51,541 bases of DNA from Parafrankia elaeagni (GTDB lineage Bacteria; Actinomycetota; Actinomycetes; Frankiales; Frankiaceae), in NCBI RefSeq assembly GCF_000374165.1, contig NZ_KB893742.1:1-51541 (forward strand). The letters are read 5' to 3'. Below are positions 23,401-41,749 of the stretch, piece by piece. How positions within the stretch are numbered: the stretch's first letter is position 1; every line of letters begins with the position of its first letter. The translations under genes and the position numbers were made by a program. The notes beneath the pieces were generated by a model. That model had not been told where the DNA came from and did not search any database. It worked only from the letters and a program-made list of their open reading frames with translations.

Positions 23401-23410
23401 CGCGAGGCGC

Positions 23411-25465: not shown

Positions 25466-25479
25466 TGTTTTTCCTCGTG

Positions 25480-26181
25480 TCAGAGGGTCGCGGAATCACC
25501 GCGGCCGAGTTCCCAGGTCGCGTCCAGCGGTGCGACCCAGAAGAACTCGCCCTCGGCGTCATACGCGTAGATCACCGCGGAGCTGCCGGCCCGCATCGGG
25601 CCGACACCCGGATGTCGGACGCCCGGATGTCGGACCTGAATGAGTGCGGACGAGCCATCGGAGGCGACGACCTCCGCCTGGCCGAAATCGGGCCCGACCC
25701 GGCCGGTGCGGATCACACAGGTGCTGCCGACGAAGTCAACGCGCGACGGCGGTACCCCGGCAGCGAAAATCCTGCGCAGCGGGAGGATCAGCAGACGTGT
25801 GCCGAGCCAGGCGACAAGAAGTGCCGCCGGGAGCACCACCACGGAGAGAACGACCCGCAACGACGCGCCCGGGCCTGTGTGATCGAGAAGAATCCCGCCC
25901 CCGATGCTGGCGAACCAGGCCAGCGCGAGCAGGACGGAGAACGCGACGGTGACAGGCACCCCGCCGAGCCCGGCAGCCGCCAGAAACCCCGCGAACCCAC
26001 CACCCTCGACACTGCCCTGACCGGCGGCCTCGATGTCACCGTGAAGGTCGCCGTGGACGTCGAGAACGTCCGCGCTGATTCCGCCGAACAGCACCGCCAC
26101 CCAGTACCCGACAACGACCAGCAGCGCGAAGCTGAACAGGGCGGCCGGAAAGCCGAGCGCGGCGCCGAGAAACTCACCCAT
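25480..26181 (-). CDS. YqiJ-like OB-fold membrane protein
   Basis: The 233-residue protein from ATG 26181 (MGEFLGAALGFPAALFSFAL) has three predicted membrane segments: about residues 9-32, 75-98 and 105-135. A C-terminal cytosolic or peripheral beta-barrel follows (about 145-233; VDFVGSTCVIRTGRVGPDFGQAEVV...). It matches the NfeD-like OB-fold proteins that are encoded next to flotillins and partner with them. The start was chosen because the membrane helix follows at once and because upstream in-frame sequence to 26799 is non-coding in character; the Shine-Dalgarno site (GGGAGG, about 12 bases away) is weak. It is the first gene of the operon with the flotillin and the giant ATPase. A GPxxRxGS-type repeat (RHPGVRHPGVGP) lies near residue 195. 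Confidence 0.85.
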   Translation of the reverse strand: MGEFLGAALGFPAALFSFALLVVVGYWVAVLFGGISADVLDVHGDLHGDIEAAGQGSVEGGGFAGFLAAAGLGGVPVTVAFSVLLALAWFASIGGGILLDHTGPGASLRVVLSVVVLPAALLVAWLGTRLLILPLRRIFAAGVPPSRVDFVGSTCVIRTGRVGPDFGQAEVVASDGSSALIQVRHPGVRHPGVGPMRAGSSAVIYAYDAEGEFFWVAPLDATWELGRGDSATL

Positions 26182-26695
26182 CGGTCCGCCGGCCCCTCCC
26201 GACCGGGCGACCGCCGGGATGGGCGTCGCTCGGACCAGGGGCAGGCGAGAAAGAGAAACCTCCGCCGACACACTCGGCGGGCCTTTCCGGTCGCACGGGA
26301 CGGCGTGCCTGCACGGCGGCAGACAATGCGGCCCCGGCCACGGTGGAGAGCACCATGACAGGAAGCTCCGATCGTCACTTTGATCACAATCTGTGACCGC
26401 CGACCAGACTTCCCGGCACTCCGAGACGGACCGTACCGTACCCCGCCGCCCATTGCCACCGTTTTGCCACGAGTGGCGAGCGCGACGGTCGCGGCCCAGC
26501 ACGGCGTCATACCCGCCGCCCTTCGTGGTGCCGCCGCGGCTGGGACCCCCGAGGTACCTGCCGAGGACGCACCGGGCGAACATTCCCCGAACCGGCGGAC
26601 GGGCTCGGGGGACCCACGACATCGTGGACGCCAACCGGTCCGGTCTCGTGATCGTCGGCCACAACCTCGTCCCGGCTCGACTCCCAAGGAGCGTC
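26182..26695. promoter_or_regulatory. divergent intergenic region
   Basis: These 514 bases lie between the leftward YqiJ-flotillin-ATPase operon and a rightward hydrolase, so both promoters should be here. The least GC-rich part, 26355-26400, contains CGATCGTCACTTTGATCACAA-like sequence and may be the operon promoter region. I see no gene and no clear operator. Confidence 0.4.
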
Positions 26696-27565
26696 ATGTC
26701 CCAGCCCGAATCCCTGTCCTCCGAGCCTGCCCTCCCCGAGTCCACGGTCGCGCAGATCGAGCAGGCGAACGCCTCGGGCCGCACGCCCGTGGTGTTCATC
26801 CACGGGCTGTGGCTGCTGCCGAGCAGCTGGGACCGCTGGGCCGCCCTGTTCCTCGAGGAGGGCTACGCGCCGGTGCTCCCCGGCTGGCCGGACGACCCGG
26901 AGACGGTCGAGGAGGCCAAGGCGCACCCGGAGGTGTTCGCCAACAAGACCATCGGCCAGGTCGCCGACCACTTCGCGGCGGTGATCAGCGGGCTGACGAA
27001 GAAGCCGGCGGTGATCGGGCACTCGTTCGGCGGGCTCCTGACGAACATCATCGCCGGGCGCGGCCTCGCCGCCGCCTCCGTGGCGATCTCCCCCGCCCCG
27101 TTCCGGGGGGTGCTGCCGCTGCCGATCTCGGCGCTGCGCGCCGCCGCCCCGGTACTGGGCAATCCCGCCAACCGGCACCGCGCGGTGCCGCTCACCTTCG
27201 AGCAGTTCCACTACGCCTTCGCGAACGCCGTCAGCGAGGAGGAGGCGAAGGAGCTGTACGAGACCTACGCCGTTCCCGCCCCGGGCGCGCCGCTGTTCCA
27301 GGCGGCGGCCGCCAACATCAACCCGTGGACGGAGGCGAAGGTCGACACCGACAACCCCGACCGCGGCCCCCTGCTGATCATCAGCGGCGAGCGTGACCAC
27401 ACGGTACCGAAGGCGATCTCGTCGGCCGTCTACCGCCAGCAGAAGGACAACCCGGGGGTCACGGAGTTCGTGGAGATTCCCGGTCGCGGACACGCGATCA
27501 CCATCGACAACGGCTGGCGGGAGGTCGCCCAGACCTCGCTGGCGTTCGTCCGCCGCTTCGCCTGA
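26696..27565 (+). CDS. alpha/beta hydrolase
   Basis: The 289-residue cytosolic protein starts at ATG 26696 with AAGGAG five bases upstream. It shows the full alpha/beta hydrolase set: oxyanion-hole HGLWL near residue 36, nucleophile elbow GHSFGG with Ser110, catalytic Asp in SGERDHTVP and His in GRGHAITID. There is no signal peptide or membrane segment. It is close to esterase/lipase-like proteins with no assigned substrate, and is transcribed alone between two leftward operons, converging with the giant gene whose stop lies 39 bases away. No damage is seen. Confidence 0.9.
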   Translation: MSQPESLSSEPALPESTVAQIEQANASGRTPVVFIHGLWLLPSSWDRWAALFLEEGYAPVLPGWPDDPETVEEAKAHPEVFANKTIGQVADHFAAVISGLTKKPAVIGHSFGGLLTNIIAGRGLAAASVAISPAPFRGVLPLPISALRAAAPVLGNPANRHRAVPLTFEQFHYAFANAVSEEEAKELYETYAVPAPGAPLFQAAAANINPWTEAKVDTDNPDRGPLLIISGERDHTVPKAISSAVYRQQKDNPGVTEFVEIPGRGHAITIDNGWREVAQTSLAFVRRFA

Positions 27566-27604: not shown

Positions 27605-30600
27605 TCAGGTGCCGATCACTCCCGCAGCCTCGTCGAAGATCGCGTATGCCTCGGTGCCGGTCAGCACGCCGTTGTAGGTCAGGAACACGACCAGCATCAG
27701 AATCGTCTGGTAGAGCGAGATCGACCCGGCGGGCAGCGGTGCCCAGCCGGCCGCCGTCGAGTACGACCCGGCCAGGTCGGTGTCCGTGAGGTTCAGCATC
27801 ACGTCGCCGATCCGGGTTCCGCTGCCGGCCGTGCCGATCGGGGAGCCGATCCGCACGGCCGCCGCCGCCCCGCCTCCACCGAGGCCGACCGTCACGCCCA
27901 TGGTGTCGTTGAAGATGCGGTAGGGCTGGTCGCCGGTCAGTCTGCCCTTCGCCGCCAGTCTGGCGACCAGGCGCAGCAGCACCGGCAGGCCGGCCCGGGT
28001 CGGGTCGATCGCGACCCAGCCGGTGCGGCCGGTCGGCACACCCGGGTGGAACCTGCGGTCGACGTCGGCGAGTGGCACGTCGGGAACGGTGGCGCCGAAC
28101 CCGCCGGCCGGGGCGGCCCCGCCCGGCAGCGTGCGGCAGCTGTCCCCGGGCGGCGAGCCGAGACACATGACCAGCAGCCCACCGCCCTTGCCCGGGTCCC
28201 CACCGCGGACCTGGTTCGCGAGGATCCGGGTGCAGTCGTCGGCGGAGAGCACCCCGTTCGCCCGCAGCGCGACGATCAGCAGCCCGAGCGCGCTCATCCC
28301 GGCGGGCTCCCCGTGCGGGCTGGCGACCCAGCCGGTGCGGTTCGGCGTGCGGGTCGGGTAATAGCCCTGGTCGAGCTGGGCGCGGGTCTGCTTGCCCTGG
28401 TACTCGCCGAAGTCCCCACCGTACCCGCCGTCCCCGCACCCACCGCCCGGAGCCGTTCCGAGGCACATCGTGTGGAAGACGCCGGTGGGCACGGCCACGG
28501 AGGATGACCAGGGGCCAGGGTTCTCGGCCTTCGCCCGCACCCGCAGCAGGTAGCTGACGCCGCTGGTCAGCGGTGGGGTGCGCCACCCGAACGCGGCGCT
28601 GGGACCGCTGGTGGCGACGTCCTGCACCGCCCGCCCGGCGAGGTCGGTGATCTGGACGTCGTAGCCGGTGGCGCCGGTGACGGCGGTCCAGGTCGCGCTG
28701 ATGTTGGAGGGGTCGTCCAGGGTGGTCAGGCCGGTCGGCGCGGCGAGCGGGGTGATCGTGGCCCGCACCTCGTCCGAGCTGATGCTGCCGGCGCGCGCGA
28801 CGAGGGTGACCGGGTACTGCTGGCCGAGCGTCAGCGGGCCACCGGAGAGCACGGCGGTGGTCGTCGGCGCGGAGACCGTCGCCGAGGCCAGCACCGCCCC
28901 GCCCGGGGCGAGCAGACACAGGTCGTAGGCGGCGGCGTCACGAGCCGCGCCCCAGGTGGCCCGCACCGACGACCCCTCGACGGACAGCGTCAGGCCGGTC
29001 GGGTCGTCGTGGACGGTGACCTGTGCCGGGGTGCTCCAGTCGCTCCAGAACGTGTTGTACAGCCAGCTCCGGACCTTCGCGGTCCAGACCCGGTAGCCGG
29101 GCATGCCCGACACGTCGAACTGGGTTCTCGGATCCGGCGAGACGCCGTCCGTCGGCCGCATCTCCCGTCCGGTCCCGTTGCCCGGCGCGTGTTCCAGGCT
29201 CACCTTGTAGCCGCCGCCGGGCGCCCCGGTCGGGGTCCACGACATCGTCACCTGCCCGGCCGCGTATCGGATCGCGGTGATCGTCGGCACGTCGAGGTAC
29301 GCCGTGCCGTACCGGTCGCCCCACGGCCCCACCTGCCCCGGATGGACCGTGCGGACCCGTACGTCGTAGAAGTCGCCCAGGGCCAGCGCGGCGCCGTCGG
29401 ACCGGCGCAGCGTGACACTGCCGCCGGTGACGCCGGTCGCGGTGGCCGCCAGGGTGTTGCGCAGGGTGAAGTAGATCTCCACGTCGTAGGAGCGCCCGCC
29501 CGCGCCGTCCGGGTCGGTGGTGTCGGTGTGCGGCGTCCAGCTCACCACGAAGGCGTTGTTCACGAACGTGAGGTTGAGGCCGCTCGGGGCGACCGGCGGT
29601 GCGGCCACGACCAGATCGGCCCGGTCGCTCCGGGGGCCGACGACGCTGCCGGCGGCCGTGCTGACCGTGGCCCGCACCCGGACGCCGTACCGCTGTCCGG
29701 CGGTGACCGCGGCGCCGTCGGACCGGCTCAGGGCGGTGCCGTCGGGGTCGGTGCCGCCCGCCGTCCCGACGGCCGTCCCGACGGCCGTCCCGACGATGGT
29801 GCCGGGGTCGGTCGCGCTGGTGGCCTGGTACAGCTCCACCTCGTACGTCGGCGCCGGGGTCAGGCCGGTCAGCGGGGTCCAGCGAGCGGTCAGGGTGTCG
29901 ACGAGCCGGACCAGGCGCACGTCGGCGGGAGCCGGGACGACGGGCACGTCGAGGTCGGTGCGGGTGCTCCACGGCCCGGTCGTGCGGCCGGTGGTGCGCC
30001 CGGCCTCGTCGGTGACCGTCACCCGGGCCCGCACCCGCACCCCGTATCGCGCCCCGGCCCCGACCGGCTCGCCGTCGGTCCGGGTGAGCCCGGTACCGGC
30101 CGGGTTCGCGTCGGCGGCGAGGCCGATCACCTCTCCGGGGTCGGCGGTTCCGGTCGTCCGGCGCAGTTCGACCTCGTAGGACGGCGCCGGGGCCACGCCG
30201 GTCAGTGGGGTCCAGCGGGCGGTCAGCGCACCGTCGGCGTAGCTGAGCGCGGTGCCGGTCGGGGCGGTGAGGTCGGCGATCGCCAGGTCGGTGCGCTCGT
30301 TCCACGGGCCGACGGTCCGGCCGCCGGTGTCGGCGATACTCCCCCGCACCCGCACGCCGTACCGCTGGCCCGGCGTGATCGCCGCCCCGTCGGCCCGGGT
30401 GAGCGCGGTCCCCGCCGGATCCGCCGCGGTGACCGTGCCGACCACCGCGCCCGGGTCGGCGGGCCCGGTCGCGAGCACCAGCTCCAGGTCGTAGGCGAGC
30501 GGGCCGGCGGTGGGCGACGCCCACCCGCCGTCCGGCGGCGTCCAGCTCGCGGACAGCGCGCCCGCGTCGTAGCTGACCACGGTTCCACCGCAGGTGGGGA

Positions 30601-33600
30601 CGTCCGCCACGGGGAGGTCGGCCCGCGCGCTCCAGGGGCCCAGGGTGCGCCCGGCCGAGGCGAGGTCGATCGCCCGCACCCGGACGCCGTAGACCTGGGC
30701 CGGCTCGATGTACCCGAGGTCGCTCCTGGTCAGGGGCGTTCCCGTGGGATCGCCGCCGACGATCCCGCCGACCACCGTGCCGGGGTCGGTACCGCTGCCG
30801 ATCACCCGCAGTTCGACCTCGTAGACCGGCGCCGGTGTGCGGGCTGCCAGCGGCGTCCAGGTGACGGCCAGGGCGCGGCGGCCGTTCGCGTCCGTGGCAC
30901 AGACGAGGAACGGGTCGGTGGGCACGGCCAGGTCGACGACGGCCAGATCGACGCGATCGCTCCAGGCCCCGGCGGTGCGTCCGGCGGGGTCTGCGGGGTC
31001 TGCGGCGATCGCCCGGACCCGCACGCCGTAGTAGCCGCCCGCGCGCAGCGGCGCGCCGTCATCCCGGGTGAGCACGGTGCCGGTCGGGTCTGGGCCGGTC
31101 GGGTTCGGGCCGGTCGGGTTCGGGCCGGTCGGGTTCGGGCCGGTGCCGTCGGTCGCGGTGAGGGTGCCGACGGTGCCGACCACGGTGCCGGGGTCGGCCG
31201 GGCCAGTGGCCGCGACGAGCTGTACCTGGTAGGTCAGTGTGTGGTCGCGGTCGAGCACCGGCGCCCAGGTGGCGGTGAGGGAGCTGTCGTCGGCGTCGAA
31301 GACCAGGCCGGCGCCGGTGGGCGTCCCGACGCGGGCGACCTGCAGGTCGGTGCGGTCGGACCAGGGGCCGATGGTTCGCCCGACGACCGGCCCGGTGTTC
31401 GCCCGCACCCGCACCCCGTACCGCTCGCCGGCGCTGATCGGCAGCCCGTCGGCGCGGGTCAGCGTGATGCCGGCCGGGTCCGTGCCGGTGACCGTGCCGA
31501 CCGCGGTGCCCGGGTCCGCGGCGTCGGCGGCGAGCACCAGTTCGGCGTCGTAGCGGGCGGCCAGGTCGTCACCGAGCGGCGTCCAGGTCACGGTGATCGC
31601 GCCGTCCACGCAGATCAGGTCGAGCCCGGTCGGCGCCGGCAGGTCGGCGACCACGAGTTCGGCCCTCGCCCACGGGCTGGTCCGGTTGGCGGTGACCGCG
31701 CGCACCGACGCCGTCCAGGTGTCGGCCGGAGTGACCGGGCCGGCCGGGGTCCGCCGGGCGGTGGTGGTCGCGTCGTCGGTCGCCCAGCTCTCGGGTTCCG
31801 CGCCGTCCCGGCCGAGCCGCAGCTCGTAGTGGCTCGCGCCCTGCACCGCCTGCCAGAACAGGGTGAACTGGCCGTCGTCGAGAGTGAGGGCGGTCAGTTC
31901 GGGTGCGCCGAGGGAGAGGATCTCGAGCGTCACCGGGACGGCCGGCAGCGAGGGCAGCGTCCTGGCGTCACCGACCGCGCCGACCCGGGCCGTGTAGGAG
32001 CCGGCGGCCGGGTCGGCGACCGGGACCGTCACCCACATCGACCCGGCCGGTGGCACCGGGCCCCCGGTGACCGCGGGTGACGGGGTGCCCGCGGCAATGG
32101 TGGTGTCGACCAGCGGCGTGCCGTCCGGGGCGAGCAGGCGCACCTGGTAGGAGACCGCGCCGTCGACGATCGGCCAGCTCGCGGTGAGCACGTTGTCGCC
32201 CCAGGTCAGGGTGGTGACCGGCGCGGGCAGCCGGAGAGCGGTCAGCTCGCCCCGCTCCCCGGTCTGGTCTCCGCGCCGGCCGCGGACCCGCGCGCGGTAG
32301 GTGCCGGCGGCCAGGGTGGCCAGGTCCGCCGGGAAGGCGGCGCTGATGCTCTGGCCGGCGTCCTTCGTCGCCAGCAGCACCGGGGTCGCCAGCAGCACCT
32401 CGCCGGGCCCCCACAGCTCGACGGTGTACGCCTCGGCGTACTTCGCACCGCCCCAGGCGACGTTGATCGCCCCCGCCACCGGTGTGCCGTACGCCAGCAA
32501 CGTGACGGCCGGACGGCGCGGTGTGGTGTCGGTCGGGTCGGGGTCGGTGTCGTCGTCGTCCCCGCTGGCGAGCGCGTCGATGATCACCACGATCAGGGCG
32601 GCGAGCAGCAGGGCGCCGCCGAGCAGGAGCGCGGCGTCGCTGGCGAGGAACGCCGCCGCCGCGTCGCAGGCGAACGCGATCAGACCGTCGACGAGCCCGT
32701 TGCAGGCCATCTCCAGAGCGATCTGGACGGCGGTCGGCCCGAACAGCATCACCAGGAAGATCACGGTGTCGACCGGGTGGGTGAGCAGATCGAGCAGGAC
32801 GTCCCGCCCGCCCGCCGCGACGCCCGCGGCCAGGACCTCGGGCAGGTCGTCCCAGGTCGTGGTCGCCGGCACCCGGATCCGCATCGTCGGCAGGTCCTGG
32901 GTGACCCACGGGTCGTCCTCGCCGCCGAAGGCCAGCGCGTAGCTGCCGCGCAGGCTGAAGACCAGCGTCGTGCCCTCCGCGGCGACCGACGGCGTGATCG
33001 TGAAGATCGGGTGGCAGGCGGCCGCGACGGCCGTGCGCGCGATGACGCCGCAGGCGGAGTGCGGGGTGTTGAGCAGGTTGCGCAGCTCCTGGACGAAGTC
33101 GATGAGTCTGCGGGCCCAGTCGAACTGCGGCCAGTCGTCGATCTGGAACTCGCTGTCCCGGGACGGGTGCGTGAGGTAGGTGAAGCCGCAGTGCAGCCGG
33201 CCGAACGGCTCGAGCGGCTCGGCTGCCTCGAGCCGGCCGCTGAACCGGGAGCCGCCGTCGGTGCCCGCGCGCACCGCCACGTCGACCGTGCCGAACGCGG
33301 AGCCGAGGAAGTTCACCCCGGTCGACAGCGCGAAGCTGGAAGTGTCCGCGACGGTGAAGCCGAGCTGCGGGCCGCTGGTGTAGGGCCCGGCCGGCAGCGC
33401 CCGCCGCTTGCTCGCCAGCGTGACGAAGAGCAGGTCGACCGGGCTGTCGAGCTGGAACGCCGCGGCCACGGTGGTGAACTCGCGAGTTGTCTGGTCCCGG
33501 CCGATGTTCACGATGCCGTGCAGGTCGAGCGTGGTGACGAGGGTGAGCCGGACGCGGGCGTCGACGGTGAACCCGTCCTGGTACCGGTAGCCGTCGACGA

Positions 33601-36600
33601 CGGCCAGCGCGCCAGCCGGGTCGGCGTCCTGGTCGTAGTAGGTGATCCGGCTGCCGTTCCGGAACGTGATCTCGATGAAGTCGCTCGGCCAGTCCGAGCC
33701 CGAGCCGGTGACGCACTGGGCGAGGAACGCGCCGATCGCGAAGTCGCGGTCCAGCAGCAGCTCGAACAGCACCGGCGTGCCGTTCACCAGCGCGAGCCGG
33801 GCGCCGACCGAGGGCCGCTGGTCGGTCTGGTCCGGCGCGGGCGCCGGGCCGAGCAGCACGTGCCCGCGCAGCGCCGCCGCGCTGCTGGCCGGCGTCGCCG
33901 GGGTCGCGCCGCTGGCCGGCACGGCCCAGGTCAGCCGCACGTCCAGGCCGAGGCCGGACAGCACGATCCCCGGGATGCCGAAGGGGCGGTCGATCTCCTG
34001 CGCGGTCTGGGTGACGGTGCTGGTCAGACCGGTGTCGTCGACCGACAGCGCCACGTCGAAACCCGGGGCCGTGTCGAAGACGGCGGTCAGGTCGATCCGC
34101 CCGGCCAGTTCGAACAGGTTCGCCCTGGCCGGGCGGTAGCTCAGGTGGATCCCGTCGTACCCGTCCCGCGCGGTCAGCGTGATCGCCTGCAGCAGCGTCA
34201 GGTCGGGCAGGTCCGCGGTGTAGACGGTGCGGTCCGGGTCGGCCGCGTCGATCAGCGCGGTCAGCCGCACGCTCGCGAGACCGCCCCGGTCACCGATCTC
34301 GAGCAGGCGGGAGAACAGGCTCACCGCGTCGAAGTCGAGCCGCGCCGTCAGGTACGCCCCGGCCCGCAGCGCGAGCGCGTCCCCGGTGAGGCCGGCCAGC
34401 GGGGCGGTGGCGTCCGGGTCGGCGAGCTTCAGCAGCGCGGCGCTGTCGGTGGCCAGGGCGCCGAGGCTGCCCCCGGCGGTCGGGTCGGCGGCGGTCGGCG
34501 CCCGCAGGTCGCAGATGACCAGGCGGGCGTCGACCACCCGCAGGTGGTCGTCGACCACCGACAGGGCGGGCAGCAGCGCGCCCATCCGGAAGTCCGCGCC
34601 GAGCGCGACCGCCACCGCGTAGTTCCACGGCCGGGGATCCGTGCCGGTTCCTGTGCCAGTGCCGGTGCCAGTGCCGGAACCGGAACCGGGACCGGTGCCG
34701 GTGTTCGGTGGCTGCGGTGCCCGGGCGACGTAGAGCAGTCCGTCCAGCAGGCTCTGCCCGGCCACCGACACGGTGCCGTGCAGCAGGAACCGCGAGCCGG
34801 TCACGTCCAGGTAGACCTCGGCCGAGCCGAAGACCGGCGGGGCCAGCGCCGCGGGCACGAGGTCGTCCCACCGCGAGCCCGTGCCCGCGTCCGCGTCGAC
34901 GAGCGTGTCGGCGACCTCGTCGACGGCCAGGCCGTCGAGGTCGGCGGTGGCGACCGCGCCGGTGAGCACGGTCGGGGTGTCCTGGGTACCGATCGTCAGC
35001 CCGACGGCGGCCCGCAGGCCGCCGATCTCGAGCCGTCCGAGCAGCCGGGCGACCAGCGGCCTGCCGGTGGCCGCGATGTCCAGGGAGGCGGCCAGCGAGC
35101 GGACGGCGACGTGCGCGCCCAGCACGTCGAACTGCCAGTCGAAGCCCAGCTCGCCGTCGGCGTGGAAGGTGCCGTCGTAGGGCACCAGCCGGACGTCGGC
35201 CGAGCGCAGTGTGACCGAGCTCGGCAGCGCGCGGGACACCGCGTCGGCCGGCAGCGCCAGGGCGGCGTTGTTCGCGAGGCTCTGGGCGGCCGGCACCAGG
35301 TCGATGGTCAGGCCGTCGAGCAGCGCGCCGGTGAACACCCACGCCGAACCGTCACTCGGCCGGGTGGCGGCGACCCCGATGCCGATCCCGCCGATCGTGA
35401 CCACACCGGCCACGGTGCCGGTGACCGTACCGGTGCCGACCGGCTGCGGGACGGTCAGCGACGCCCGCAGGTCGGTGAGCGCGAACCGGCCCGGGATGAT
35501 CGTCCAGACGTCCGGGACGTCGACGGTGAAGGAGACCCGGTCGAGCGCTCCGCCAGTGCCGCCGAAGCGCAGCGCGACGGCGGACAGGTCGATCCCCCTG
35601 CTCAGCGGCAGCGCGGTCGGCAGCGCGGACCGGCTCGCCGCCGGCGAGAACCAACTCGCCAGGGCGCTGAGCGCCGGCAGGTGCAGGGGGTTGTCCTCGG
35701 CCGCGGACAGCGTCCAGATGCCGTCCGGGTCGTTCTTCACCGCCTCGACGTCGATCGGCTGCCCGGCGACCTGGATCACGCCGGTGATCTCCCCCCAGAC
35801 GCCGACCGGGTCGGTGGACGGGGTGAACCCGAACGCGGCGTCGACGTCGGTGACCGCCAGCACGCCGTCGACGACCGTCCAGGTGCCGGACTGGTCGAAC
35901 GCGAACGCCAGATCCAGCACCCGGCCGGTGGCGACCTCGACCCGCAGTGAGAACAGCGTGACGTCCAGCCCGCCGAGCGTCGAGATGCCCACCGGCAGCC
36001 GCAGCGGCCGGCTCGGGAGCAGGTCGAGCAGCTGCCCGATCGTCGGGATCCGCGCTCCGCCGCCGACCAGGCTGAGCTCGGCTACCCCGGTGGTCAGCGG
36101 CAGTGGCAGGGTCACCTCGAAGGTCGCCGACCCGCTGCCGACGGCCAGCGTCACGTCCCCGCGCAGAACCCCGGTGACAGTCCAGCCGGCCGGGGCCGGG
36201 GCCGGAGGCGCGGGCGGCACCGGAGGCGCGGGCGGCGGGGCGCTCGCGAGGGTCACGTCGCAGCCCCAGCCGGCGAGGCTGACCACCCCGCCGGGCAGCA
36301 CCCACGGCACGGTCTGGTCGATGACGAAGCGCACCGACCGCACCGCGACGGCGACCGGGTCGACCGCGACGATGACCTGGGACAGGCGCACCGCGCTCAC
36401 CGCGGTGACCAGCGCGTCGGGCAGCAGCGCGAGCACCCCGGCCCCGCTCTGACCGGCCAGGCCGGCCAGCGCGTCGAGGGTGGGTGCGGCCGCGCCGCCG
36501 CCGGTCGCACTCGGGTCGGTGGCGACGGTGACGTACCACAGGCCGTCGGTGGCCAGCGTGACCGTGACCGCGACCTCGACCCCGAGTGTGACCAGCGCGC

Positions 36601-38515
36601 CGACGCGCACCTCGGCGGCGAGGTACGGCGTGCCGGTCGGCCCGGCGGTGGCGACCAGGATCAGGCCGAGCCGCGGCTGGCGCAGTGCCACGCCCGGCGC
36701 GGCCGTCCACTCGTCGTCGCAGCCCAGGGTCAGCACGGTGCGGGTGGACGCCGGCCCGGTCCTGGCCACGTCCACCTCGAAGCCCAGCACCTGGGCGCCG
36801 GCGAGGCCGAGCAGCGCGGCGGGCAGTGCGACCGGCAGCAGGTCGGTGACCCCGGCGGCGGCCAGCACCCCCGCCAGGTCCGTGCGGACCAGCGCCGGGT
36901 CGACCGCGACCAGCGCGGCGCCCGGCCGGTGCGGGGTCGGCAGCCCGATCTCGACCGCCACCGGGTCGTCGTCGAGCTCGATCGTCCCGAGCAGGGTGGC
37001 GTAGGTGGCCAGCGCACCGGTGGCGCCGAGGGCGTCGTCCCAGCCGCAGCCGAGGACGAGCTGCCGGCCGGTCACCGCGAGGTCGGGCTGACCGACCCGG
37101 CTCAGCGCGAGGCCGGGCACCGTGACGTCACTCGTCCAGGCGAACCGCGGGCGCTCGCCGTCCTCGCCGTCGAACGAGACCGGGCCGCCGACCAGGACAT
37201 CCGTCCGGTCGTCGTCGTCGATGTCGTCGCTCGGCCCGTACGGGTTGTCGGGCAGCAGGTCGGCCCGCACGCCCAGGGTGACCCGCAGGTTGAGACCGGG
37301 TTGCAGCGCCGGCCCCGCGTCGTCCGCGGCCTGCTCCCACGTGCTGGCCAGGACCCGCACGCCGCGCGGGCGCAGATCGTCGAGGTCGGTGCCGAGCAGC
37401 GGCGTGAGGACGTCACCGAGATCCCAGCCGGGAAGTGTGCCGGTGGCCCAGGTCGCCTGCAGCAGCGTGTCCTGCGACACCGCGAACTCGACGGTGACCG
37501 GCACGTCCTCCGCGCCGTCCGCAGCTCCGCCGCCGCCCGTGCCGTCGCCGCCCCCGCCCGTACCACCGTCACCGAACAGCCGGGCGGTGCCGGCCAGGGT
37601 CAGCCGGGTGCCGTCGTCGCTCAGGGCCGGGCCCGGGTCGTCCGGCGTGGTGCTGACCGCCACCGGGACGGCCGGCGCGGACTCCGTGCCGAGCGTGGCA
37701 TCGACGACGGAGCCCAGCAGGTCGCGGACCCGCCCGGCGTTCTCGGGCAGGTCGTCGGGCAGCGTCGTCGCGTCGAGGGTGTAGGCCAGCCCGACCGGGG
37801 TGCCGGCCGTGTCGGTCACCGCGGTCCGGGCGGCGACCAGTCTGTCCCGCAGCGCCGTCAGGATCGCGGTGACCGAGCGCAGGACCACGGCCAGCCGCTC
37901 GCTCCACGGCCCGTACGACTCGCCGGCCCGCGCCCGGACCCGCACCTGGTAGGGCGTGTCGAGGGCGAGGACGTCGTCCGGGGCGAGCGTGAGCTCGGTC
38001 TGGTCGGTCTCGACGACCCGCAGCACCGCCGTGCCGTCGCCGTCGCCGTCGCCGTCGCCGTTGCCGTCGCCGTCGCTGTCTCGGTCGCGGATCTCGACGA
38101 GGTAGCCGGTCGCGTCCGGCACCGCGGCCCAGGACAGCACCACGCCGTCGATCACCGGCCGGCTGACCGGGTCCGGGGTGGCCAGGTCCACCGCGGTGAC
38201 GGCGCACGGCTCGCTCGCCGGCCCGAGCACCGTGACGGTGACCGAGTAGATCGCGCCGGCCGTGACGGTCAACGTCTCGGCCGGCACGGCGTACGGCCGG
38301 GTCACGTCGGCGGCGAACACGGTCAGCCCGGTCGTGGTCGTGGTCGTGGTCGTGGTGCCGTCGCCGTGGTCGCCGGTGATCTCGATCTGGTAGCGGTACG
38401 CGGCCGCGACCGGCTCCCAGTCGAGCAGCAGCGCGCCGCCCTCGTAGCGGACGGCGACGACCGGCCGGATCACCAGCGCGTCCTCGCTCGGGACGGGAGG
38501 TGGTGGTGTGCTCAT
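27605..38515 (-). CDS. giant 3636-aa membrane protein: beta-rich N half, FN3-like array, triplicated C domain
   Basis: The start is ATG 38515 (MSTPPPPVPSEDALVIRP), overlapping the previous stop by ATGA. Layout by residue: 1-210 two fibronectin-III-like modules, the second holding an acidic Gly/Asp run (DGDGNGDGDGDG). From 210 to about 1910 there are long repeated beta-strand blocks, perhaps DUF6603-like (from memory, unsure). Hydrophobic segments lie near 1917-1936 and 1961-1985 (ALLLGGALLLAALIVVIID). From about 2000 to 3340 there are 10-12 FN3-like modules of about 110 residues, many with GPWS-R-DL, ADPG-VVG and YGVRVR. From 3349 to 3636 one domain is repeated three times, with GWV at about 3396, 3498 and 3588. 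There is no signal peptide, LPXTG or enzyme motif. It could be a surface or envelope scaffold. Not recognised as any characterised system. Confidence 0.85.
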   Translation of the reverse strand: MSTPPPPVPSEDALVIRPVVAVRYEGGALLLDWEPVAAAYRYQIEITGDHGDGTTTTTTTTTGLTVFAADVTRPYAVPAETLTVTAGAIYSVTVTVLGPASEPCAVTAVDLATPDPVSRPVIDGVVLSWAAVPDATGYLVEIRDRDSDGDGNGDGDGDGDGTAVLRVVETDQTELTLAPDDVLALDTPYQVRVRARAGESYGPWSERLAVVLRSVTAILTALRDRLVAARTAVTDTAGTPVGLAYTLDATTLPDDLPENAGRVRDLLGSVVDATLGTESAPAVPVAVSTTPDDPGPALSDDGTRLTLAGTARLFGDGGTGGGGDGTGGGGAADGAEDVPVTVEFAVSQDTLLQATWATGTLPGWDLGDVLTPLLGTDLDDLRPRGVRVLASTWEQAADDAGPALQPGLNLRVTLGVRADLLPDNPYGPSDDIDDDDRTDVLVGGPVSFDGEDGERPRFAWTSDVTVPGLALSRVGQPDLAVTGRQLVLGCGWDDALGATGALATYATLLGTIELDDDPVAVEIGLPTPHRPGAALVAVDPALVRTDLAGVLAAAGVTDLLPVALPAALLGLAGAQVLGFEVDVARTGPASTRTVLTLGCDDEWTAAPGVALRQPRLGLILVATAGPTGTPYLAAEVRVGALVTLGVEVAVTVTLATDGLWYVTVATDPSATGGGAAAPTLDALAGLAGQSGAGVLALLPDALVTAVSAVRLSQVIVAVDPVAVAVRSVRFVIDQTVPWVLPGGVVSLAGWGCDVTLASAPPPAPPVPPAPPAPAPAGWTVTGVLRGDVTLAVGSGSATFEVTLPLPLTTGVAELSLVGGGARIPTIGQLLDLLPSRPLRLPVGISTLGGLDVTLFSLRVEVATGRVLDLAFAFDQSGTWTVVDGVLAVTDVDAAFGFTPSTDPVGVWGEITGVIQVAGQPIDVEAVKNDPDGIWTLSAAEDNPLHLPALSALASWFSPAASRSALPTALPLSRGIDLSAVALRFGGTGGALDRVSFTVDVPDVWTIIPGRFALTDLRASLTVPQPVGTGTVTGTVAGVVTIGGIGIGVAATRPSDGSAWVFTGALLDGLTIDLVPAAQSLANNAALALPADAVSRALPSSVTLRSADVRLVPYDGTFHADGELGFDWQFDVLGAHVAVRSLAASLDIAATGRPLVARLLGRLEIGGLRAAVGLTIGTQDTPTVLTGAVATADLDGLAVDEVADTLVDADAGTGSRWDDLVPAALAPPVFGSAEVYLDVTGSRFLLHGTVSVAGQSLLDGLLYVARAPQPPNTGTGPGSGSGTGTGTGTGTGTDPRPWNYAVAVALGADFRMGALLPALSVVDDHLRVVDARLVICDLRAPTAADPTAGGSLGALATDSAALLKLADPDATAPLAGLTGDALALRAGAYLTARLDFDAVSLFSRLLEIGDRGGLASVRLTALIDAADPDRTVYTADLPDLTLLQAITLTARDGYDGIHLSYRPARANLFELAGRIDLTAVFDTAPGFDVALSVDDTGLTSTVTQTAQEIDRPFGIPGIVLSGLGLDVRLTWAVPASGATPATPASSAAALRGHVLLGPAPAPDQTDQRPSVGARLALVNGTPVLFELLLDRDFAIGAFLAQCVTGSGSDWPSDFIEITFRNGSRITYYDQDADPAGALAVVDGYRYQDGFTVDARVRLTLVTTLDLHGIVNIGRDQTTREFTTVAAAFQLDSPVDLLFVTLASKRRALPAGPYTSGPQLGFTVADTSSFALSTGVNFLGSAFGTVDVAVRAGTDGGSRFSGRLEAAEPLEPFGRLHCGFTYLTHPSRDSEFQIDDWPQFDWARRLIDFVQELRNLLNTPHSACGVIARTAVAAACHPIFTITPSVAAEGTTLVFSLRGSYALAFGGEDDPWVTQDLPTMRIRVPATTTWDDLPEVLAAGVAAGGRDVLLDLLTHPVDTVIFLVMLFGPTAVQIALEMACNGLVDGLIAFACDAAAAFLASDAALLLGGALLLAALIVVIIDALASGDDDDTDPDPTDTTPRRPAVTLLAYGTPVAGAINVAWGGAKYAEAYTVELWGPGEVLLATPVLLATKDAGQSISAAFPADLATLAAGTYRARVRGRRGDQTGERGELTALRLPAPVTTLTWGDNVLTASWPIVDGAVSYQVRLLAPDGTPLVDTTIAAGTPSPAVTGGPVPPAGSMWVTVPVADPAAGSYTARVGAVGDARTLPSLPAVPVTLEILSLGAPELTALTLDDGQFTLFWQAVQGASHYELRLGRDGAEPESWATDDATTTARRTPAGPVTPADTWTASVRAVTANRTSPWARAELVVADLPAPTGLDLICVDGAITVTWTPLGDDLAARYDAELVLAADAADPGTAVGTVTGTDPAGITLTRADGLPISAGERYGVRVRANTGPVVGRTIGPWSDRTDLQVARVGTPTGAGLVFDADDSSLTATWAPVLDRDHTLTYQVQLVAATGPADPGTVVGTVGTLTATDGTGPNPTGPNPTGPNPTGPDPTGTVLTRDDGAPLRAGGYYGVRVRAIAADPADPAGRTAGAWSDRVDLAVVDLAVPTDPFLVCATDANGRRALAVTWTPLAARTPAPVYEVELRVIGSGTDPGTVVGGIVGGDPTGTPLTRSDLGYIEPAQVYGVRVRAIDLASAGRTLGPWSARADLPVADVPTCGGTVVSYDAGALSASWTPPDGGWASPTAGPLAYDLELVLATGPADPGAVVGTVTAADPAGTALTRADGAAITPGQRYGVRVRGSIADTGGRTVGPWNERTDLAIADLTAPTGTALSYADGALTARWTPLTGVAPAPSYEVELRRTTGTADPGEVIGLAADANPAGTGLTRTDGEPVGAGARYGVRVRARVTVTDEAGRTTGRTTGPWSTRTDLDVPVVPAPADVRLVRLVDTLTARWTPLTGLTPAPTYEVELYQATSATDPGTIVGTAVGTAVGTAGGTDPDGTALSRSDGAAVTAGQRYGVRVRATVSTAAGSVVGPRSDRADLVVAAPPVAPSGLNLTFVNNAFVVSWTPHTDTTDPDGAGGRSYDVEIYFTLRNTLAATATGVTGGSVTLRRSDGAALALGDFYDVRVRTVHPGQVGPWGDRYGTAYLDVPTITAIRYAAGQVTMSWTPTGAPGGGYKVSLEHAPGNGTGREMRPTDGVSPDPRTQFDVSGMPGYRVWTAKVRSWLYNTFWSDWSTPAQVTVHDDPTGLTLSVEGSSVRATWGAARDAAAYDLCLLAPGGAVLASATVSAPTTTAVLSGGPLTLGQQYPVTLVARAGSISSDEVRATITPLAAPTGLTTLDDPSNISATWTAVTGATGYDVQITDLAGRAVQDVATSGPSAAFGWRTPPLTSGVSYLLRVRAKAENPGPWSSSVAVPTGVFHTMCLGTAPGGGCGDGGYGGDFGEYQGKQTRAQLDQGYYPTRTPNRTGWVASPHGEPAGMSALGLLIVALRANGVLSADDCTRILANQVRGGDPGKGGGLLVMCLGSPPGDSCRTLPGGAAPAGGFGATVPDVPLADVDRRFHPGVPTGRTGWVAIDPTRAGLPVLLRLVARLAAKGRLTGDQPYRIFNDTMGVTVGLGGGGAAAAVRIGSPIGTAGSGTRIGDVMLNLTDTDLAGSYSTAAGWAPLPAGSISLYQTILMLVVFLTYNGVLTGTEAYAIFDEAAGVIGT
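31081..31141. repeat. 15-bp tandem repeat in the giant gene
   Basis: Four units like GGTCGGGTTCGGGCC encode GPNPTGPNPTGPNPTGPDPTG inside one fibronectin-III-like module. A second in-frame microsatellite at about 29757-29800 (GACGGCCGTCCC units) encodes VGTAVGTAVGTA in a neighbouring module. Both sit at the same loop position between the ADPG and LTRxDG motifs. Confidence 0.8.
38021..38075. repeat. 6-bp repeat encoding a DxDGDG acidic run
   Basis: GCCGTC units (reverse strand GACGGC) encode alternating Asp-Gly residues, DSDGDGNGDGDGDGDG. Alternating Asp in this spacing looks like calcium-binding DxDxDG loops, though simple slippage is enough to produce it. A second 6-base repeat at 38331-38360 encodes a run of nine Thr. 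Confidence 0.75.
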
Positions 38516-40020
38516 TCGGGATCCACTTCCGAGTCGAGGTCCATCTCCGAGTCGAGGTCCTCGCCGCTGTCGATGTCCCGGTGGTTCGCGTCGACGAACG
38601 GAACCGGCTCGCCGGCCTCGGCGCCGAACGCGTCGCGGCGCAGTGCGGCGCCGGTGAAGTTGCTGGTGTCGATCCGCAGGTCGGCGAACCGGTCCCCCAG
38701 CCCGTCGAGGTAGGCGGCGTACAGCACGGCCAGGTCGATGTCGCGGGTCGCCTCCGGCTCGCGCAGCGCCGCCAGTTCGAGGACGTCCAGGTCCGGGTCG
38801 AAGCGGTAGAGCGCCGACCAGGTGAAGCCACCCAGCAGCGACATCCGGTCGCCCAGCTGCCCGTCCGCGCTGTCGTCGTCGCCGCGGCGCCCACGCTTGC
38901 GGTTGCGCATCCCGACCACGAACGTCCAGTAGCGCAGCTCGCAGCGCAGCCGCGTGGCGTCGTTGACCAGCACCGGTTCGCCGCCCGGGTCGGCGCGGCC
39001 GCGCATCGGCACGTCCGGTGGTGGCTCGATGTCCGTCAGCTGGCCGGTGCCCGCCAGGTAGGTGCCGATCCGGTCCAGCACCGCCATCCCCGAGCTCCGG
39101 GTGACCTCGTCCAGGTCGTACGCGTTGAGCAGGTGCGCGGTGACCTGGCCGGCGGCCGGCACGTCCTCGCGGACGCACAGCGTCTCGGGGAAGCCGTCGT
39201 CGGCCGGCAGTGTCAGCAGGACGTACGGGCCGACGAGCTGCGCGATGATCTCGTCGTTCCCGACCCCCGCGAGCGGCGGACCGCTGTCCGGCGGCGCGTC
39301 GTCCAGGCGGGCCGTGCGCAGCCGGTCGAGCACCAGCCGGTAGCCCTCGGTCTGACGGAGCGCGACAGCCCCCGGGTTCAGCACCAGCAGGACGTTGTCG
39401 TCGGACAGCACCGCCTCGACGTCGGCGACGGAGATCGTCCCCGTGGCCACCTCGGCCACGATCGAGGCCACCGCCGAGCGCTGCGCATCGGGCAGGTTCG
39501 CGACCGGCCGGCTGGGCGGGGCCCAGAGCGAGCCGTTCACCCGCGACGCGCGGAAGAAGTCGTCCGTGGTGCGCAGCGTGCCGTCGCTCAGCACGCCGTT
39601 GAAGGCGTAGAACGGCGGGAACGACCCCATGCCCCGTGCCCGCGCGTCGGCCGGGCCCATGAAGTCCAGGAACCGGTACTCCCCGTCGACGTAGGGCCAC
39701 CGGTCACCGATCCGGCCGCCGAACACGTCCGGCGGGATCGGCGTCCCCGCGTAGGTGAGCTGCGCCGCCTGCACGTAGCCGAGGTGGTCCAGGGCGCGGC
39801 CGGCCTGGTTCTCGGCGGCGAACCGGCCGTCGCGGTCAGGCTGGTAGTAGGAGCGCACGACCACGGGCTCGCTGAACCGCTGGTCGAACCCGACCACGTG
39901 CGGCCCGACCTCGAAGTAGCGCTGCCCGAGCGGCGCGCGCACCGTCTGGTCCCCGGCGACACCGGTGACGTCGTACCACCCGTCGACCGGGTCCTGGATC
40001 CGCAGGGGCATCGCCTTCAC
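38512..40020 (-). CDS. unrecognised 502-aa protein with acidic tail
   Basis: I do not recognise this family. The protein starts at GTG 40020 (VKAMPLRIQDPVDGWYDVTG; GAGG four bases upstream) or at ATG 40011. It has no signal peptide or membrane helix and looks globular. Notable segments are GPHVVGFDQRFSEPVVVRSYYQPD, a Gly/aromatic stretch GSFPPFYAFNGVLSDGTLRTTDDFF, a basic patch MRNRKRGRRGDDD near residue 410 and an acidic C terminus that repeats DLDSE (DIDSGEDLDSEMDLDSEVDPE-type). Its stop overlaps the giant gene start (ATGA), so the two are translationally coupled and probably made in fixed ratio. It lies 175 bases downstream of the metallo-beta-lactamase-fold gene. The acidic tail could bind a basic partner or metal ions; this is inference. 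Confidence 0.75.
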   Translation of the reverse strand: MKAMPLRIQDPVDGWYDVTGVAGDQTVRAPLGQRYFEVGPHVVGFDQRFSEPVVVRSYYQPDRDGRFAAENQAGRALDHLGYVQAAQLTYAGTPIPPDVFGGRIGDRWPYVDGEYRFLDFMGPADARARGMGSFPPFYAFNGVLSDGTLRTTDDFFRASRVNGSLWAPPSRPVANLPDAQRSAVASIVAEVATGTISVADVEAVLSDDNVLLVLNPGAVALRQTEGYRLVLDRLRTARLDDAPPDSGPPLAGVGNDEIIAQLVGPYVLLTLPADDGFPETLCVREDVPAAGQVTAHLLNAYDLDEVTRSSGMAVLDRIGTYLAGTGQLTDIEPPPDVPMRGRADPGGEPVLVNDATRLRCELRYWTFVVGMRNRKRGRRGDDDSADGQLGDRMSLLGGFTWSALYRFDPDLDVLELAALREPEATRDIDLAVLYAAYLDGLGDRFADLRIDTSNFTGAALRRDAFGAEAGEPVPFVDANHRDIDSGEDLDSEMDLDSEVDPE

Positions 40021-40195
40021 ACATCCTCGGGTGTCGGTGGGGCTGGCCGGGCGGCGGCGCGGCGGGCCGGCCCGTCCGGTGCTGGCCTGGACGAGCGTGC
40101 GGTGCCGGTGTGGACGCCGGAGGCTGGGTCGGGTGTTGGTGTGGACGCCGGTGTGGACCGGTGCCGGTGCCGGTGCCGGTGCCGGTGCCGGTGGA
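40021..40195. repeat. intergenic spacer with GGTGCC hexamer repeat
   Basis: The spacer between the hydrolase and the orphan gene contains about six GGTGCC (GGCACC on the coding strand) units at 40159-40193, directly after the hydrolase stop codon. No separate promoter or terminator is evident, which is compatible with read-through. Confidence 0.7.
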
Positions 40196-41749
40196 TCAGT
40201 GCGTGATCTCCCAGAGGTCCGGGCCGATCGGGTACTGCGTCGTGCCGACCGTCTCGGTCGGGCGCAGGGCGGCCTTCGCCGTGGTGAGCGCGGTCTGCGC
40301 ACCGGTGCCGTAGACCTGGACGACGAGCTTGGTGCCGAACTTCGACGCGGCCTGCACCGCGAGCACCGACTCGTCCGTAGGGCGCACCACGATGTCGCCG
40401 ACGATCTTCGCGCCGCGCAGGTCGAGGTTGAAGGCCGTGACCTTCTTCTGGCCCGACATCTTCGCCTTCGAGGCGATCTCGGTGACGTAGATCGCCTGCA
40501 CCGTGTTGTCGACCGGCGGCAGCGGTGGAGCGGGCGGCGGGGGCGCCGGCGGGGCGGGCGGAAGGTACACCCCCCACCTGGGGGTCTGTGACTTCGCCAG
40601 GCGGTTGAGCACCGCCTGGGTGGGGTGCGCGTGGAAGCGCCGCTTCACCCCGGAGCTGATCACCGCGATGGACGGGCGCAGCGCCGAGATCATGAAGACA
40701 TCGTTGCTGCTCATGCTGCCGTGGTGACTGGCCTTCATCACCGTCACCTGCCCGGCCACCGGGAACTTCGCGGCGTTCGCCGTCGCCGTCAGCGTCCGCG
40801 GGAACCTGGCTTTGACCGCCGGACCGAGCACCGTCTCGACGTCGCCGTGGCTCGACATCTTCGTGGCGCCGTGGGCCACCGCCGCCTTGTTCGCCCCGGT
40901 GTTACCGCCCGCCTCGGCGCCGTTGCCGGCGATGTCCCCGGCGGCGTAGAACCGGAACGAGCCGTACTCGACCAGCACGCTGATCGAGCGGTCGTTCTGG
41001 TCGACGTCCTTGGTCTTGATCTTCTTGATGCTCGTGGTGGCCTCGTCCCAGACGCCCTGGGCGGCGGCGAGCACGTGCACGTTGATGTCCAGCCCGCCCT
41101 CGCCCTTGCCGAGGGTGAACGTCGTCGGGGCCGTCGCGGTGTCCTCGAGACCACCGGGGCCGATCGTGACGACCCTGGTCACCGTCGGGTACGCGGTGGT
41201 GGCCTTGCGGGCCCGGCCGACGTTCGCCGCCAGGTCCTTGTTCACCGGGTTCGACTTGCCCTTCGTCGCGGCGAACTGGGGCCGGTAGATCGTGCCGACC
41301 CGGTAGCGCTCCTCCTCCTTTTTCTCCTTCCTGCTGGTCGGCTTCCCGGTCTTGGCGTGGACCCCGGTGACGACGACCTCGTAGCTGCGCCGCAGCAGCG
41401 TGTCCAGCCCGTCGCCGTGGTCATCGTGGTGATGGCTGAGCATCACGGAAAGGTTCGGAACGTACGCGGCCGTGGCCGGGATGACACCGACCCTGCGCAG
41501 GTAGGTGAGGACGGTGTCGCCGTACGGGCTGGAGCCGCCGTCGATCAGCAGCGCCTCGACCACCGTGCCGTACAGCGGGACGGCTTTCTGCACCGCGTAC
41601 GGCAGATAGTCGATCAGGTCGGCCGGCGGCGCCAGCCCGCTGACCTTCTTGATCTCCGCCGCGACCTTGGTCAGATCCCGGTTGACCACCAGGACGGAAT
41701 CGCCCTGCCCGACGTTGATGACATGGATCTCCAGGCGCGCGCTGGTCAC
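40196..41749 (-). CDS. metallo-beta-lactamase-fold hydrolase (ComEC/Rec2-like)
   Basis: The 517-residue protein from GTG 41749 begins VTSARLEIHVINVGQGDSVLV, the typical start of ComEC-type MBL domains. Metal ligands are in LSHHHDDHGDG (His106-x-His108-x-Asp110-His111), then YAAGDIAGN with a ligand Asp and ASHHGS near residue 342. An insert rich in Lys/Glu (SRKEKKEEERY) and a Lys-rich loop precede the second half. A Pro-rich linker (PPAPPAPPPPAPPLPP) joins a C-terminal domain of about 110 residues that is not recognised. There are no membrane helices, so it is a soluble hydrolase, possibly a nuclease, phosphodiesterase or lactonase. The start is supported by GGGGGG seven bases upstream; longer in-frame sequence to 42085 is not coding-like. 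It heads the operon with the orphan and giant genes. Confidence 0.88.
   Translation of the reverse strand: MTSARLEIHVINVGQGDSVLVVNRDLTKVAAEIKKVSGLAPPADLIDYLPYAVQKAVPLYGTVVEALLIDGGSSPYGDTVLTYLRRVGVIPATAAYVPNLSVMLSHHHDDHGDGLDTLLRRSYEVVVTGVHAKTGKPTSRKEKKEEERYRVGTIYRPQFAATKGKSNPVNKDLAANVGRARKATTAYPTVTRVVTIGPGGLEDTATAPTTFTLGKGEGGLDINVHVLAAAQGVWDEATTSIKKIKTKDVDQNDRSISVLVEYGSFRFYAAGDIAGNGAEAGGNTGANKAAVAHGATKMSSHGDVETVLGPAVKARFPRTLTATANAAKFPVAGQVTVMKASHHGSMSSNDVFMISALRPSIAVISSGVKRRFHAHPTQAVLNRLAKSQTPRWGVYLPPAPPAPPPPAPPLPPVDNTVQAIYVTEIASKAKMSGQKKVTAFNLDLRGAKIVGDIVVRPTDESVLAVQAASKFGTKLVVQVYGTGAQTALTTAKAALRPTETVGTTQYPIGPDLWEITH

Follow-up and report, generated by a model that had tools for sequence, protein, structure and literature searches.

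Several described bacterial systems come close to the subject of this study, a three-gene locus of Parafrankia elaeagni in which a metallo-beta-lactamase (MBL)-fold hydrolase, an orphan protein and a giant protein of 3636 amino acids (aa) are encoded side by side on contig NZ_KB893742.1. The nearest published idea, going by the accessible part of its source, is that of GTPase-centric conflict systems, in which a protein with FNIII repeats occurs together with variable components (PMC7159879). Other points of reference, likewise drawn from the accessible parts of their sources, are the MBL domain of ComEC, which is a Mn-dependent nuclease (PMC8579336); MBL proteins related to the ComEC type, which serve as nucleases in defence systems (PMC12799240); nuclease-protease pairs, defined by a trypsin-like protease that is fused to a defence enzyme and encoded downstream of the MBL (PMC12799240); and polymorphic toxin systems, of which immunity genes are a key feature (PMC3482391). 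In the window, by which we mean the whole analysed stretch of 51,541 nucleotides (72% GC), the giant shares, as judged by profile comparisons, a repeated module with some of the giant proteins that carry the Pfam domain DUF6603 (PF20248), and it has no DUF6603 domain itself. Our working model for the locus as a whole, which we offer tentatively and rate a little short of even, is a giant modular scaffold with a translationally coupled orphan and a dedicated, exchangeable MBL-fold hydrolase.

All three genes lie on the minus strand. The hydrolase gene (40196..41749) encodes 517 aa, with a ComEC/Avs1a-type MBL domain and a conserved C-terminal extension; the orphan gene (38512..40020) encodes 502 aa from a GTG start, or 499 aa from a downstream ATG; and the giant gene (27605..38515) is an open reading frame (ORF) of 3636 aa. 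A preliminary description of this DNA had given three leftward genes of these sizes, with an ATGA overlap of orphan stop and giant start, and both their coordinates and the overlap, which we read at 38512..38515 on the minus strand, hold. We take them to be genes and not chance ORFs because codon-position GC bias is strong in the giant and MBL frames and because homologues of all three are found elsewhere in identical order; the orphan frame does not appear in the codon-bias listing, where it was masked by an over-extended giant frame. That the three genes form one operon, as was also claimed, is likely but not proven: they share a strand, and no terminator-like site was found between the MBL and orphan genes (a weak test, shuffled sequences averaging only 0.7), but these two genes are separated by 175 bp, the corresponding gap being 80 bp in genome G030 (Frankia nepalensis CN7).

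The first link to DUF6603 giants was a weak match of the giant core in another family of the class (genome G274, E 4e-4), where the matching sequence is a DUF6603 protein of 1457 aa; the gene encoding it overlaps that of a ComEC-like MBL immediately upstream. The DUF6603 Pfam domain gave no match in the window giant, in its three homologues or in the rest of its own genome, and it was found in 36 of the 394 class genomes sampled. We took in 39 of 40 distinct DUF6603 places, one sub-threshold place being left out, and clustering assigned 35 of these loci to a main giant family (c0) and four to a second one (c10). A module hidden Markov model (HMM) was iterated on four giant cores alone and then tested against 503 neighbourhood proteins and reversed sequences. 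Outside the family of these cores it matched best a giant of genome G009 (2.8e-22), followed by the DUF6603 giants of loci L033 (1e-9), L070 (7e-7), L074 (3e-6), L076 (2e-4) and L094 (3e-4), while the best match to a reversed sequence had an E-value of 0.034. In some DUF6603 giants the shared module lies upstream of the DUF6603 domain.

The same model marks five module copies in the window giant, all on the minus strand: residues 564-669 (36509..36826), 698-826 (36038..36424), 840-949 (35669..35998) and 965-1073 (35297..35623), and a partial copy at residues 1488-1560 (33836..34054). The fourth copy, which contains the motif WTIIPG, falls within the region from which the top-scoring single-module model against a DUF6603 giant was derived. 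Among single-module models with matches below E 0.01 outside the family, modA reached six proteins and modB three, all of them DUF6603 giants, and reversed and shuffled controls gave no match below that value. Additionally, hhalign of the core against three DUF6603 giants linked to MBLs of family c12 gave a probability of 91 (E 1e-6 over 277 columns); these three giants were picked after their matches had been seen, but the search of 503 proteins is independent of that choice. The preliminary description named no characterised equivalent of the apparatus, and no characterised member of the DUF6603 giants was found in the literature searched; the giant itself is not without relatives.

Conservation within the family supports a fixed pairing of orphan and giant. 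In our family sample (36 genomes including that of the window; an order-level search gave the same 36), the orphan occurs in four genomes, namely that of the window, G029, G030 and G031. The 394 class genomes returned these four and one spurious match and nothing more, and the orphan profile found the window's own protein alone in 396 phylum genomes, scoring in both samples being confined to the three or four best candidates of each genome. A match in G195 (E 9e-4) was rejected by eye, as it fell in an unrelated metabolic-type frame with unrelated surroundings. In all four orphan-bearing genomes a homologous giant lies directly 3' of the orphan; in the window, G029 and G031 the two genes meet in ATGA, and in G030 a single base separates stop and start. 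Identities among the four loci are 30-67% for the orphans and 36-66% for the giant cores, the core of the window giant (residues 210-1960; 32636..37888, minus strand) being 36-39% identical to those of the three other genomes. A scan of GTDB contigs for two exact short motifs of the core, a search that misses distant relatives, found Frankia nepalensis CN7 alone, and weak core matches were also seen in G137 and G388.

The enzymes beside these giants differ. Upstream of the orphan, a window-type MBL is present in the window and in G030 and was not found in G029 or G031, so that the earlier proposal of a three-gene system, checked by co-occurrence, stands for the orphan-giant pair (adjacent in four of four) but for the MBL in two of the four loci only. 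In G029 and G031 the giant is followed by two paralogous genes for proteins of 456-484 aa recognised by HEG[ST]H motifs (L014:14404-17233 and L015:14792-17817); Aspzincin_M35 is matched weakly and below threshold by two of the four, and on the strength of the HExxH motif we read them as putative zincin-like peptidases. Three of the 36 family genomes have a window-type MBL: two copies adjoin orphan and giant, and the third, in G009, is a shortened copy with a HAHSEH motif in which HHGS was not found. On another contig of G009, a partial giant with the module, cut off by the end of the contig, stands directly behind an HNH-domain gene, with a TGATG overlap; in all, it is preceded there by two genes that match HNH, in one case below threshold (L032:5493-8495 and 8495-11577).

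The genes beside the DUF6603 giants differ as well. In 24 of the 35 main-family loci, the giant has directly upstream, on its own strand and within about 160 bp, a gene for 150 aa or more, several of the starts being over-extended and overlapping. This gene encodes an MBL in four loci (L033, L070, L074, L076), which are also the four best module scorers among DUF6603 giants. In seven others (L065, L066, L067, L069, L071, L072, L073) it belongs to family c5, proteins of 220-291 aa with an HHxVP-like motif that may be nuclease-like, going by its resemblance to HNH motifs; the two members scanned had no Pfam match, and at L078 the family is encoded on the opposite strand. The remainder includes PhoD-like proteins in three loci (L087 by Pfam, L075 and L079 by cluster and motif), hemopexin/propeller proteins in two (L088 by Pfam, L089 by cluster), and single cases of a subtilase, an MGH1-like glycosidase, a WD40 protein and a weak peptidoglycan-binding match. 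When 256 sampled genomes were searched reciprocally with the L033 MBL, two contained it at E 1e-8, and the two copies are the ones beside giants. Among the four upstream MBLs, that of L070 is the only one matching the window type (25.7% over 152 residues, E 1e-5; profile E 3e-10). Downstream, 28 of the 35 giants are directly followed by a partner of family c1 (17) or c3 (11), two families that hhalign relates with a probability of 98; BLAST clustering found no such partner in the window, L013, L014 or L015. The second giant family, c10 (L098, L099, L100, L101), measures about 2260 aa in three loci and 1404 aa in L100 and has a partial DUF6603 match; in three of its four loci a c18 partner of 1219-1263 aa lies downstream.

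The ComEC-like MBL fold attributed to the window hydrolase is borne out. Its best NCBIfam match is TIGR00361 (ComEC/Rec2, 2e-11), restricted to the MBL part (profile positions 600-652 alone, 42.8 bits against a cut-off of 190), and a two-sequence MBL profile reached ComEC structures in the Protein Data Bank (PDB) with E 1.4e-6. The sequence and its alignment with the homologue place an HxHxDH metal-binding motif, HHHDDH, at residues 106-111 (41417..41434, minus strand; context SHHHDDHG) and an HHGS motif at residues 342-345 (40715..40726, minus strand), the arrangement of HxHxDH or HxDxDH with downstream His motifs by which the MBL superfamily is recognised. Pfam Lactamase_B_2 scores 15.8 bits, under its cut-off of 27, and PHROGs matches, one of them called a tail protein, fall over the HHGS region. 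The protein is 46% identical to the MBL of G030 over the alignment. It does not show the make-up of a full ComEC (OB domain, membrane channel and MBL), and no hydrophobic segment was detected in it at a threshold of 1.6. Since the MBL domain of ComEC is a Mn-dependent nuclease and related MBLs are defence nucleases, a first guess by analogy is that the hydrolase is probably a metal-dependent phosphodiesterase or nuclease.

Taken together, the working model would assign the parts as follows. The giant would be the scaffold, with its conserved core of five module copies, then an fn3-like array and then a lineage-specific end, while the orphan would be a partner made together with it through translational coupling. 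Giant and orphan would thus be the constant part, perhaps within a physical complex, and the hydrolase the exchangeable working part; the enzymes interchanged with such giants would comprise MBL, zincin-like and HNH proteins and, at DUF6603 loci, also a PhoD-like phosphatase, a subtilase and a glycosidase. The core may hold the enzyme, the variable fn3 and C-terminal part may recognise a target, and the enzyme may then degrade it, with the MBL acting as a metal-dependent phosphodiesterase or nuclease, perhaps for conflict. A conflict-type apparatus, as suggested in the preliminary description, is a possible reading that fits the interchangeable hydrolases. A wider reading, which we regard as possible though doubtful, is that DUF6603-type giants and the orphan-giant branch are one uncharacterised class of machine, in which a giant scaffold works with coupled interchangeable hydrolases, the MBL has been recruited repeatedly as a dedicated nuclease and the orphan is a new adaptor family, seen so far in this Frankia-containing family alone.

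A number of results weigh against the working model. The module signal is uneven: modC gave one outside match (0.006) and modD none below 0.01, hhalign of the whole core against an alignment of all DUF6603 giants found nothing, and against two other DUF6603 subfamilies it returned probabilities of 4.5 and 0.8%. The enzyme association is uneven as well, beginning with the MBL present in only two of four orphan-giant loci. L033, L074 and L076 have their operon layout and MBL subfamily in common, so that the MBL-giant associations among DUF6603 loci amount to about two independent cases. Furthermore, the module does not specify an MBL, since L094 has a module match but no MBL-motif protein nearby by motif and profile search (which a variant MBL could escape) and the G009 giant stands with HNH genes. 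No close same-strand upstream gene exists in 11 of the 35 loci, and in four of the 24 that have one it belongs to families c37 and c39, which match no known family. The metal and substrate of the window MBL may differ from those of the MBLs of L033, L070 and L076, as it carries HxHxDH and they carry HxDxDH. No signal peptide was seen by eye (no predictor was run) in the window MBL, the orphan or four giants, and no small immunity-like gene common to the four loci was seen.

The orphan, described from the outset as a protein without recognisable family, matches nothing in Pfam, PHROGs, PADLOC or NCBIfam, and PDB offers no relative, the sole match being at chance level (E 0.86). Kinship with the DUF6603 giants or their partner families was tried and rejected: hhalign found nothing against c0, c1, c2, c3, c4, c5, c6, c10 and c18, and the best outside match of hmmsearch among DUF6603-locus proteins had an E-value of 0.29, so that the orphan resembles none of the partner families tested, which also counts against the working model. 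The hhalign method did work here, because the same set-up linked c1 to c3 and c10 to c0. The acidic DLDSE tail that had been pointed out is present, encoded by an 18-bp tandem repeat (38529..38578, minus strand), but it is missing from all three homologous orphans. Structure prediction of the orphan and of part of the giant, proposed earlier as a check, produced AlphaFold2 models but no fold: from two-sequence alignments, pLDDT was 30.7 for the orphan, too poor for use, and 33.2 for giant residues 690-1760, equally unusable.

It is unlikely, in our assessment, that the unit is a hydrolytic assembly, secreted or fixed to the cell surface, that serves nutrition or the turnover of the cell wall and uses its fn3 array for binding or as a spacer. 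The window giant does contain fn3 (Pfam; residues 124-209; 37889..38146, minus strand), and LamG, LysM, glycosidase, subtilase and esterase genes, as well as one with a weak peptidoglycan-binding match, are found beside some DUF6603 giants. Beyond fn3, Pfam yields at useful E-values only a sub-threshold Ig match, NCBIfam a single 19-residue match far under its cut-off, and PDB no match to the core. The giant may be a membrane protein, as had been described: one strong hydrophobic stretch in the window giant (residues 1961-1979; 32579..32635, minus strand; score 2.98) points that way and would also suit a surface-attached assembly, but the homologues are no more than Ala-rich at the corresponding position (2.08 in G030, 1.92 in G029, below 1.6 in G031). 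With no signal peptide visible and no strong conserved membrane segment, the envelope association once suggested finds no clear sequence support.

Even less probable to us is an anti-phage defence system, in which the MBL would be a nuclease effector like Avs1a or the MBLs of Hachiman and Lamassu, activated by an orphan and giant that sense infection. The hydrolase has weak PADLOC and NCBIfam matches to LmuA (4.5e-6), RTasMBL (6e-5) and Avs1a (0.02 and 0.001), the patchy distribution of the orphan (four of 36 family genomes) would suit such a role, and known systems, as far as the accessible part of the source describes them, place the MBL nuclease gene immediately upstream of the activator (PMC12799240). 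On the other hand, Pfam shows no trypsin or other protease domain in the window orphan and giant or in their homologues, no NTPase was seen in the window unit, and the window neighbours scanned are mostly metabolic or hydrolase genes, the PADLOC search having covered five window proteins.

We give about the same low credence to a polymorphic-toxin-like system, in which a conserved giant would deliver exchangeable toxic enzymes to competitors. HExxH, HNH and MBL genes do stand beside related giants, and past the conserved core the giants diverge: in that of the window a long fn3-like region follows and then, as judged by eye, a set of three related units at the C-terminus, of the CLGxxPG...GRTGWV type (residues 3350-3636; 27608..28468, minus strand), that of G030 has a different and unrelated end, and those of G029 and G031 end early. 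Outside the window, the C-terminal end has one weak match in the 36 family genomes (E 0.0018), with a stop inside. The enzymes are separate genes, however, and not C-terminal fusions; no known secretion or trafficking domain was found in the window giant (Pfam, PHROGs, NCBIfam, PADLOC) or in its homologues (Pfam only); and no small conserved immunity-like gene was seen beside the units, the window giant having no small same-strand gene next to it and an opposite-strand hydrolase gene 40 bp away, though a distant immunity gene, or one that escaped notice, may exist. The window unit showed neither an immunity gene nor a protease or NTPase, and this argues against classing it with polymorphic toxins or nuclease-protease defence pairs.

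That the MBL is an unrelated neighbour and the unit consists of orphan and giant only is very unlikely: although its absence from two of four orphan-giant loci and the 175-bp gap would fit, the order is identical in two genomes of different genera, and MBLs recur beside giants both in DUF6603 loci and in the reciprocal test from the MBL side. A plasmid or phage origin was rejected, as tblastn matched the orphan to nothing in plasmids or phages, and the giant core and MBL to nothing in plasmids, and the orphan profile matched nothing in viral contigs.

Other features of the window touch the unit less directly. A likely operon on the minus strand (18259-26799) encodes a DUF3686/AAA ATPase of 1713 aa, 66% identical to its counterpart in G017 of the same genus, an SPFH/Band 7 protein of 684 aa and a 439-aa membrane protein, which has no Pfam match and appears NfeD/OB-like by eye alone; as no such gene was noticed near the other three units, we treat its proximity as chance. 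Two flanking genes tested for synteny of the site lie on different contigs in the genus relatives G019 and G021. Lysine depletion was dismissed as a special trait of the giant, which ranks at the 7.5th percentile among 186 neighbourhood proteins; DUF6603 giants have a median close to that of the background. Elsewhere on the minus strand are a 394-aa protein that unites GNAT acetyltransferase and GDSL esterase domains (43978-45162) and a bifunctional proline dehydrogenase/aldehyde dehydrogenase with a short repeated AREVAG stretch (7595-11185).

If the working model is true, giant scaffolds would be a new way for bacteria to arm or organise enzymes. The link between giants and exchangeable hydrolases offers a testable idea of what DUF6603-type giants do, and the MBL-orphan-giant unit a compact three-gene test case for them. 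In the literature searched, neither DUF6603 nor PF20248 is mentioned, and the titles and abstract openings of the matches listed for MBL- or fn3-associated giants of actinobacteria or Frankia contain no description of such a unit. The module falls within a background that is catalogued yet uncharacterised, and the kind as such has a fair chance of being a machine not described before.

How, then, does the locus compare with known systems? From polymorphic toxin systems, with which, as presented in the accessible part of the source, it shares a conserved large protein, variable ends and different enzymes (PMC3482391), it differs in showing no immunity gene or trafficking domain and in having its enzymes as separate upstream or downstream genes. 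With the nuclease-protease pairs of AVAST, Hachiman, Lamassu and DRT systems, again within the accessible part of the source, it shares a stand-alone ComEC-like MBL upstream of a large partner (PMC12799240), but no trypsin-like protease or NTPase partner was found in the window unit. The MBL domain of ComEC/Rec2 has the same fold and active-site motifs and gives the best family and structure matches, whereas the window MBL is stand-alone, with no predicted membrane part, HxHxDH in place of HxDxDH and a C-terminal extension of its own. GTPase-centric conflict systems resemble the locus in their fn3-rich protein, variable components and occurrence in multicellular bacteria (PMC7159879); no GTPase or GAP1 was found among the window proteins scanned, and the giant core module is not reported in the accessible part of that work. 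Finally, the window lacks the DUF6603 match and the downstream c1 or c3 partner of DUF6603 giants and has the orphan inserted between MBL and giant, but it is like them in its homologous repeated module, and many of their loci also have a close same-strand 5' gene, which in four of 35 encodes an MBL.

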